Assembly (NCBI GenBank): GCA_027487435.1
Contig: JAIYDP010000116.1
Location: 1-64,000, forward strand
Reading direction: 5' to 3'
DNA length: 64,000 bases
Source: Verrucomicrobiaceae bacterium
Lineage (GTDB): Bacteria > Verrucomicrobiota > Verrucomicrobiia > Verrucomicrobiales > Akkermansiaceae
Below are positions 9,255 to 56,121 of this stretch, in pieces. A program made the translations under genes and the position numbers. The notes under the pieces were generated by a model. That model worked only from the letters and a program-made list of their open reading frames with translations. It searched no databases and was not told where the DNA came from. The stretch's first letter is position 1. Each line of letters begins with the position of its first letter.

Positions 9255-9375
9255 AACGGGCTGAAAACTCGACCCTTGCGGCATTACGCAACGCCACATT
9301 CCGCCATGGAGCGTGCTTTCAGCCCTCGTGAATTTGTTCACATTAACACCTAGCGCGTAGCACTAGGCTGGTATG
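9255..9375. repeat. REP-like palindromic dispersed element, copy 1
   Basis: The right part, with GCTTTCAGCCCTCG at 9314-9327 and the hairpin CCTAGCGCGTAGCACTAGG at about 9349-9367 followed by CTGGTAT, closely matches the reverse complement of the element at 54919-55083 (ATACCAGCCTAG...CGCTAGG). The left part has a GGGCTGAAA that can pair with TTTCAGCCC. It lies between the cas operon promoter and the phosphatase gene, in a 491-bp gene-free stretch that otherwise holds only the palindrome at 8990 and a short CATGGA/TCCATG hairpin at 9081-9096. I see no transposase. Confidence 0.6.
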
Positions 9376-9435
9376 ATCATGCACCCTTGGCGCGCAAGAG
9401 TGAATGCATGCTTAGTGTTTGAAAATTTCTGTATT

Positions 9436-54755: not shown

Positions 54756-54918
54756 AATCGAGATATTAGAAGAACTGGTTGTCGAATACCTTGGCAAGAA
54801 ATCGATCTGGGTCATTGAGAAACGATTTGGTTAGTTAAGGACGTGACCATTGCCCATGAGAATGATTTACACGAAGAATCTCTACAACATCATTCTTTCG
54901 CGCCATCGGCGCATCGCC

Positions 54919-55083
54919 ATACCAGCCTAGTGCATCGCGCTAGGACTTTACGGAAGCGAGATTGATGAGGGCTGAAAGCCCGATCTATGGTGGCGTAGGT
55001 GCTGCAAAATGCCTCATAGGGCGGGCTTTCAGCCCTCGATTTCTGGTACATCGATCACCTAGCCCGGTGGGCTAGGCTGGCAT
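54919..55083. repeat. REP-like palindromic dispersed element, copy 2
   Basis: A long imperfect palindrome: outer ends ATACCAGCCTAG (54919-54930) and CTAGGCTGGCAT (ending 55082); inside them CCTAGTGC...GCGCTAGG, a 16-bp perfect inverted pair GAGGGCTGAAAGCCCG (54967-54982) / CGGGCTTTCAGCCCTC (55022-55037), and a second hairpin CCTAGCCC-GGT-GGGCTAGG (55058-55076). A related copy is at 9255-9375. Repeats of this kind are typical of REP-associated tyrosine transposase families, which act in trans; no transposase is in the window. Confidence 0.7.
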
Positions 55084-55181
55084 AGAGCCGGACCTTTGGT
55101 CTTCAAGAATGCTAACACGCTTAGGGTTCACGCTTAGGGGCTGACACTTTTTACGGGGGATTTTTGTTTGCGGAGGGCATT

Positions 55182-55270
55182 CCTTGGAGTGCGGCGACAC
55201 GTCGCCGCTTTGGATCGGGGCGACATGTCGCCCCGGAGGGAAAGCGCGGACATGTCCGCGCACTCCAAGG
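55182..55270. repeat. 89-bp cloverleaf-like element with three palindromes
   Basis: Outer 12-bp arms CCTTGGAGTGCG (55182-55193) and CGCACTCCAAGG (55259-55270) are perfectly complementary. Inside are three 18-bp palindromes with the same core GAC-AN-GTC: GCGGCGACACGTCGCCGC (55191-55208, centre AC), GGGGCGACATGTCGCCCC (55217-55234, perfect) and GCGCGGACATGTCCGCGC (55244-55261, perfect). The single strand could fold into a stem with three hairpins. I recall similar GCGACATGTCGC repeats dispersed in Verrucomicrobiae. It sits just downstream of the alpha/beta hydrolase gene stop (55282). Confidence 0.8.
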
Positions 55271-55281
55271 GGGAAATGCGG

Positions 55282-56121
55282 TTAGCGCACCGCTCGCATG
55301 GCGGAGATGATCGCGGTGGCTTGATCGTCTTGCAGATCGTTGTGGCTGCAGCCTTCGCAGAGTTTGAGCGGGAATTTTTCGGGGGCTAGGCTGTGAAGCG
55401 TGCGCGACATTTCGGCGGGGATGATGTTGTCGCTGAGTCCGTGAAAGATGTAGATCTTTGTTTGCGGGTCGTTGGCGAAGGATTGGAGGATCTTTTTGTT
55501 GTCGAAGCGATGGGTGACGAGGAAGCCGAGGGGGACTCCTATCACTTCTTTGGTCATGTCCATGGTGCTGGTGAAGGGCGATAGCAGGACACCGCGATGC
55601 AGCGAAAATTCTTCCGCTGCGATTAAGGCGCAGGCGGCGCCGAGGCTGTGACCGAAGATGCGGCCGCGTTCTTTCAGCATCGCAGCGTCCCATTGCAATT
55701 CGGCAGCGGCGAGTGGGATGGCCGTTTTCAGGGTTTCGCGGATGTTACTCGGGTGGGGCGAGCCTTGGTTGGCTCCGTAGCCGGGGTAGTCGATCAACAA
55801 ATAGGCATCCTCGGCGGGTGCTTTATGTTTCATGAACCTTGTCCAGTCCGTGGCCAAAGAACCATTTCCGCCACAGACGACCCACAGGCGTTGCGGCTCA
55901 GATTGCGGGCGCGGACGGAAAAAGTATGCCTGCTGTTTCCCTTCTGAGGTGGTGAATGACAAAATTTTCCCCTGCGTTTTTTGCTGCCACTCGGCGAGGT
56001 GTTTCGCTGGGTAGGGACGGGGGAAATAGATGAGCTTATGCTGACAGGAAACCAGCATCAGCGACATGAGTGCGATGCTGGACAGGACGGTGATAGTCGC
56101 GATACGAAAAATACGGCGCAT
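55282..56121 (-). CDS. Lipoprotein alpha/beta hydrolase
   Basis: 279 residues. N-terminus MRRIFRIATITVLSSIALMSLMLVSCQHK is a lipoprotein signal with lipobox LVSC, so it would be attached to a membrane in the periplasm. The hydrolase core follows: oxyanion loop region VVCGGNGSLATDW, nucleophile elbow FGHSLGAACALIAA, Asp in IFHGLSDNIIP and His in EGCSHNDL. Related to serine aminopeptidase/BAAT-like esterases of the Hydrolase_4 group. Substrate unknown. It is the last gene after the aminotransferase and aspS, 33 bp behind aspS. Confidence 0.83.
   Translation of the reverse strand: MRRIFRIATITVLSSIALMSLMLVSCQHKLIYFPRPYPAKHLAEWQQKTQGKILSFTTSEGKQQAYFFRPRPQSEPQRLWVVCGGNGSLATDWTRFMKHKAPAEDAYLLIDYPGYGANQGSPHPSNIRETLKTAIPLAAAELQWDAAMLKERGRIFGHSLGAACALIAAEEFSLHRGVLLSPFTSTMDMTKEVIGVPLGFLVTHRFDNKKILQSFANDPQTKIYIFHGLSDNIIPAEMSRTLHSLAPEKFPLKLCEGCSHNDLQDDQATAIISAMRAVR

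Follow-up and report, generated by a model that had tools for sequence, protein, structure and literature searches.

A probable REPIN-type element with three palindromes in a Verrucomicrobiaceae genome, and the association of its unit with a divergent class of REP-associated tyrosine transposases

REPINs and the REP-associated tyrosine transposases (RAYTs) are among the commonest repeats in bacterial genomes. As to which fold of the repeat is read by a RAYT, the long hairpin is the more stable prediction, and a less stable clover was proposed in 2011 as the REPIN fold recognized by the enzyme (Bertels and Rainey, 2011, PMC3116915). Within the Verrucomicrobia, REPs carrying GTAG or CGTC tags have been reported in Opitutus terrae (Di Nocera et al., 2013, PMC3733652). 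In this work, an element was analysed in a stretch of 64,000 nucleotides from a Verrucomicrobiaceae bacterium, hereafter called the window, and it is very probably a REPIN-type miniature, non-autonomous mobile repeat handled by a divergent Y1/HUH class of RAYT. No earlier description of this family was found in an open-access subset of the literature, in which its motif strings matched only unrelated papers among those listed. A REPIN with an identifiable class of RAYT is a known kind of element; this one is set apart by its tag, by its third hairpin and by a range across phyla. The family is of interest for the question of the fold, as it offers many natural copies whose variation separates the two structures, with local pairs kept and cross pairs broken.

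The preliminary description of this locus had reported three 18-mer palindromes held by perfect 12-bp arms at 55182-55270, and direct reading confirms both, the arms being CCTTGGAGTGCG at 55182-55193 and CGCACTCCAAGG at 55259-55270 (features in Table 1). The shared core that it ascribed to the palindromes stands for P2 and P3, which contain the exact GACATGTC, but not for P1, which reads GACACGTC and is imperfect at its centre, with CACG where the core would lead one to expect CATG. Read in order, 55183-55269 consists of CTTGGAGTGC-GGCGACACGTCGCC-GCTTT-GGATC-GGGGCGACATGTCGCCCC-GGAGGG-AAAGC-GCGGACATGTCCGC-GCACTCCAAG. Since a single unit, once direct and once inverted, makes up the two ends, the reverse complement of the element is almost identical to it, and copies match on both strands. 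The outermost arm pairs vary among other copies, and the boundary of the unit is [C/T]TTGGAG...CTCCAA. The whole element matches its covariance model with 109.8 bits, the model having been built partly from the window copy itself.

Table 1. Features of the element and its neighbouring gene (positions in the window)
Feature	Position	Strand	Basis or remark
Whole element, probable REPIN type, three palindromes	55183..55269	.	87 bp; direct sequence reading; alignment with copies
Left REP-like unit, CTTGGAGTGC-hairpin P1-GCTTT, tag GGAG	55183..55211	+	sequence; like units flank the RAYT genes of relatives
Right REP-like unit, inverted copy, CTTGGAGTGC-hairpin P3-GCTTT read on the minus strand, tag GGAG	55241..55269	-	sequence
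Left outer arm, CTTGGAGTGC	55183..55192	.	pairs with 55260-55269 (folding, covariation)
Right outer arm, GCACTCCAAG	55260..55269	.	sequence
Palindrome P1, GCGGCGACACGTCGCCGC	55191..55208	.	7-bp stem, loop CACG
Palindrome P2, GGGGCGACATGTCGCCCC, in the spacer	55217..55234	.	sequence
Palindrome P3, GCGCGGACATGTCCGCGC	55244..55261	.	sequence
Alpha/beta-hydrolase-like gene (context)	55282..56121	-	stop codon 12 bp from the element; name from sequence reading, not from a family search

About 20 full or partial copies are dispersed in the window's own genome, including 15 full alignable copies and a number of shorter versions that have two palindromes, have one, or are fused. This copy number, together with folding z-scores of -6.0 as single-stranded DNA and -8.2 as RNA and with 0 of 200 shuffles equally stable, indicates that the element is not a product of chance. 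In the 15 full copies, the core and the arms are nearly invariant, and co-variation is seen in the three bases that flank each core on its left and on its right. When these copies are read as a three-hairpin structure, 95.4% of the cells are paired and the covariation score is 0.234, against 0.069 in shuffles, a signal that is abolished by sliding the pairing partner. The preliminary description had made its reading depend on the existence of other copies and of compensatory changes in them, and both were found, with 38 cells changed on both sides compared to 14.5 in shuffles, none of 500 shuffles being as high. Its statement that the compensated changes imply selection for pairing holds for the compensation, which covariation confirms, but the inference of selection is only partly safe, because copying through a hairpin intermediate or quasi-palindrome correction yields the same pattern without selection. 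In the flank pairs, 113 of 120 cells are Watson-Crick and 2 are G-U, with almost no intermediates; paired changes of this type also fit copying through hairpins, so that they alone do not prove selection on a folded product. The scarcity of G-U and mismatch intermediates also favours the view that the elements are fossils without present function or mobility, with paired changes arising from quasi-palindrome correction or from gene conversion between copies. Fused or deleted variants and copies near contig ends point the same way, whereas copy numbers of up to about 50 per genome (a count that took in both strands) and a patchy presence within one genus argue against it, and we regard such a fossil state as unlikely, although not negligible.

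One further match in the window's genome, on contig C66, was dropped from the set of copies as a chance match to duplicated coding sequence. In this contig (L045, G000:C66) a gene region is duplicated in tandem and the long, low-GC-free reading frames differ from the rest; it may be foreign to the MAG, which measures 9.39 Mb at 82% completeness.

The competing fold is the long hairpin, in which P1 pairs with P3. Among the 15 copies it shows 9 double-changed cells, equal to the shuffle level, and columns 12-13 of this pairing are unpaired in 11 and 13 of the 15 copies. Its predicted stability exceeds that of the strict clover in every copy when folded as RNA and in 14 of the 15 when folded as DNA, some of the margins being small. 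The clover is backed by evolution, through covariation, and not by predicted stability, and the long hairpin was rejected as the conserved structure on covariation, despite its thermodynamic strength. The covariation of the copies agrees with the clover proposal of Bertels and Rainey (2011, PMC3116915). In a set of 69 elements from many genomes, both end hairpins have an identical clamp in 3, compared to 14.8 expected and a minimum of 6 in 2000 shuffles; the unlike end clamps may have arisen because a perfect long palindrome is avoided, or may go back to a common founder whose ends already differed. Local pairing in this set amounts to 98.8%, a value inflated by the filter used in collecting it.

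As to the partner enzyme, a first search for Y1 transposases adjoining the elements found none at the best-scoring Y1 loci of 11 genomes, since the scores of the partner class do not exceed the Pfam cut-off and its genes fell outside the loci examined. A Y1_Tnp search of element-rich genomes gave weak matches exactly between elements at three loci (G059:C183, G068:C304 and G057:C150). The three proteins have about 175 aa, an HYH motif and conserved tyrosines, and their class scores at the Pfam cut-off. Against the NCBIfam model NF047646 (REP-associated tyrosine transposase) they obtain 77, 84 and 83 bits, two of the three passing the cut-off of 80, and the class matches TnpA_REP of PDB 4ER8 with an E-value of 1.4e-6. 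The HUH motif, the conserved tyrosines and the curated model point, at the level of sequence, to membership of the partner protein in the RAYTs. A structure predicted for one RAYT without alignment had a mean pLDDT of 45 and was left out of the analysis.

A profile of the three proteins detected members of the class in 9 of the 15 genomes that bear the element, and gave strong matches in many relatives. When up to two mismatches per unit are allowed, 20 of 25 strong RAYT-class loci have units within 700 bp, compared to 3 of 96 other Y1 loci (Fisher p = 2.3e-15), and at no fewer than 16 of the 25 the units stand on both sides of the gene; when the three class-defining loci are left out, units are found at 17 of 22. 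A RAYT-class gene also lies between two elements at L220, a locus that came from a DNA-pattern scan without reference to protein, and full three-palindrome elements stand on both sides of the RAYT gene at L338 (a Verrucomicrobia MAG) and L379 (a Gallionellaceae MAG). Among the options offered by the preliminary description, a mobile structured element therefore finds support in the units flanking a RAYT-class transposase in many relatives. The 82%-complete assembly of the window's genome yielded no RAYT of the partner class, nor did G005, which also has copies; the copies of the window's genome may be orphans, or their RAYT may be encoded in a part that the assembly lacks. This absence adds to the case for a fossil state, and it is countered by other genomes, where intact RAYT genes are accompanied by a conserved tag and unit; that reading concerns what the window's copies are at present, and a REPIN origin would agree with it.

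The flanks of the copies bear on the mode of insertion. No target-site duplication of 3-10 bp was convincingly above shuffles, which fits Y1 transposition, and an excess of 2-bp flank repeats is explained by related copies that share flanks. Flank-junction BLAST among loci was noisy, and no excision or insertion event was seen. When an autonomous element bounded by such ends at a distance of 0.2-5 kb was sought, only pairs of separate elements were returned, and clustering revealed no recurrent neighbour gene family beside the elements. It could be argued from the perfect terminal inverted repeats and the dispersed copies that the element is a MITE of a DDE transposase with terminal inverted repeats of about 10 bp. 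The lack of target-site duplications of at least 3 bp above shuffles, of an autonomous DDE element with these ends and of a recurring neighbour family, and the strong link to an HUH/Y1 transposase instead, leave this explanation with hardly any probability.

The preliminary description had also offered a multi-site protein target, that is, three sites per element for a dimeric DNA-binding protein recognising GACATGTC. In favour of it, this core recurs in all three arms of the element and in many phyla, but related families that keep the tag, the arms and the hairpin replace it by other loops (GTGAAGC, GCTCCGC, AGTCCTCT and others). Moreover, changes in the variable flanks occur jointly on the two sides, although a half-site consensus would not require this, and again no gene family recurs beside the elements; we consider this option very improbable.

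The copies are mainly intergenic. According to crude gene calls, 26-39 of 115 overlapped a called ORF, several of them only through an over-extended start or end. With the same crude calls, the copy is nearer to the upstream stop codon in 27 of 35 tandem gene pairs, often at 30 nt or less from it (19 of 35), and there is no enrichment of convergent gene pairs (16 of 64, compared to 106 of 496 gaps). In eight relatives with an orthologue of the neighbouring hydrolase, the element is absent, and the neighbourhood is rearranged, with no clean empty site: in seven of the eight the next gene begins within about 20 bp of the orthologue, which indicates rearrangement at the window's locus.

The bias to upstream stop codons, which the window copy shares by starting 12 bp after one, and the very stable RNA fold suit a structured RNA in 3' untranslated regions, acting as terminator, attenuator or mRNA stabiliser, and a folded RNA was the third option of the preliminary description. 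This is very improbable in view of the G-U pairs in so few flank-pair cells and of the lack of enrichment between convergent genes. The Rfam search of the window gave no match at the gathering score, as a rule only three T follow each hairpin, and for most copies the best fold predicted as RNA is the long hairpin, a structure without support from covariation. REPs are known to affect mRNA, and the copies may have a secondary effect of this kind.

Reading of copies across genomes defines a general unit of about 30 nt (TTTGGASTGC-hairpin-GCTTT), two of which, inverted, form an element: TTTGGA[G/C]TGC, a GC-rich hairpin and GCTTT, then a spacer that varies, and after it these parts in reverse. 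Only a subfamily has the third palindrome and the GACATGTC core. A covariance-model search found the element in 11 of 57 neighbourhood genomes, including that of the window, with a patchy distribution even within a genus. The pattern scan of reference genomes required GACATGTC and is thus biased to this subfamily; it returned at least 112 contigs with the element, mostly from Verrucomicrobiota, and among the matches listed there are clear copies also in Gallionellaceae, Sumerlaeota and Planctomycetota, while a few single matches in other phyla look like chance. Phage and plasmid collections gave no element match. The occurrence in several phyla suggests that a REP system can cross phyla. A more ambitious reading, which we advance tentatively and at somewhat below even odds, is that of a REPIN class with the clover as the selected, enzyme-readable form, in which the different end clamps and the third hairpin prevent long zipping, and of a cross-phylum GGAG/GGAC REPtron family moving between Verrucomicrobiota and Betaproteobacteria.

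Some loci depart from the usual layout. Four elements lie in tandem at L114:5000-5600 (G001:C3); they are spaced by 158 bp, differ in orientation, and are each linked to a further short repeat that is palindromic. At L163, L222, L253, L155 and L183, extra hairpin sequences, e.g., CGTCCCGCTGAGCGGGATCG, are inserted in the middle palindrome or replace it.

Beside the element, at 54900-55095, the window also contains a second compound hairpin repeat of about 190 bp (CCAGCCTAG..CTAGG, GAGGGCTGAAAGCCC and inverted copies). It has several copies in the genome, and 9258-9393 of the window holds one more. A different Y1 transposase of the same genome, an IS200-like protein of 150 aa (G000:C414:11606-12058), is flanked by the units of this second repeat. 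Furthermore, the RAYT-like gene L270:2583-3340 (G000:C151) of this genome is flanked by inverted pairs of TGGAGC-GCCGGCTTCAGCCGGC repeats, and a second RAYT class, one member of which is in the window's genome, is flanked by GGAG-C-hairpin repeats with a layout like that of the element's units. The 54900-55095 repeat and these second-class RAYTs strengthen the link between RAYT and unit proposed for the element. In the units examined the tag is GGAG or GGAC, and no GTAG/GTGG or CGTC tag was found beside the stem; likewise, the RAYTs at L297, L303, L304, L319, L280, L282 and L100, from several Verrucomicrobiota genomes, have flanking hairpins tagged GGAG or GGAC, not GTAG. GGAG/GGAC looks like a third REP tag, and the family both adds this tag type and names a transposase class for it.

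Unit structure, copy number and covariation pattern were observed directly, as was the linkage of unit and RAYT in many genomes. As in REPINs, there are two inverted stem-loop units with a spacer, hairpin-capable, multicopy and mostly extragenic, and the units flank a RAYT gene in relatives and in other phyla, not in the window's own genome. We hypothesize that two inverted REP-like units of about 30 nt around a spacer, which here holds the third palindrome, would be bound by a divergent Y1/HUH RAYT that recognises, on single-stranded DNA, the local hairpin and the GGAG or GGAC tag 5' of it. If the enzyme acts as in REPINs and IS200/IS605 (PMC3116915, PMC6006769), it would cut near the tag and rejoin, and copies of the doublet would thereby reach other sites, most of them intergenic. 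The working form read by the enzyme is probably the clover of local hairpins, and not the long hairpin; this would explain why each arm keeps its own complementary flanks. Several observations stand against the REPIN reading: a RAYT of the class was found neither in the window's genome nor in G005, no excision, insertion or clean empty site was observed, the tag is non-standard, the long hairpin is thermodynamically stronger and a cross-phylum unit is unusual for REPs.

Among the described systems, REPINs and their RAYTs (PMC3116915) share with the element the two inverted REP units with a spacer, compensatory changes in the stems, extragenic and multicopy occurrence, the link to a REP-associated tyrosine transposase and the possibility of both long-hairpin and clover folds. 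The element differs from them in its tag, GGAG/GGAC one base before the foot of the hairpin and not GTAG, in the third palindrome within the spacer, in arms and tag that are recognisable across phyla, and in that the class RAYT was not found in the window's genome. The GTAG-/CGTC-tagged REPs (Di Nocera et al., 2013, PMC3733652) are likewise short, tagged, GC-rich stem-loops in dimers and clusters; neither of their tags is present in the element, and GGAG does not appear in the text of the paper. In the TIRYT/TIRtron systems (PMC3733652), RAYT-like genes lie between inverted repeats, some of them self-complementary, of which further copies are present at other places in the genome, as in the family described here, but the TIRtron motif GGGGWSAS is absent, by inspection, from the consensus unit of the element. 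The G000:C151 REP family of the same genome (TGGAGC-GCCGGC-TTCA-GCCGGC-TTTC) has the same succession of GGAG, one base, a GC hairpin and TTT, in inverted pairs beside a Y1 transposase, and differs from the element in its hairpin sequence and in the class of its RAYT.
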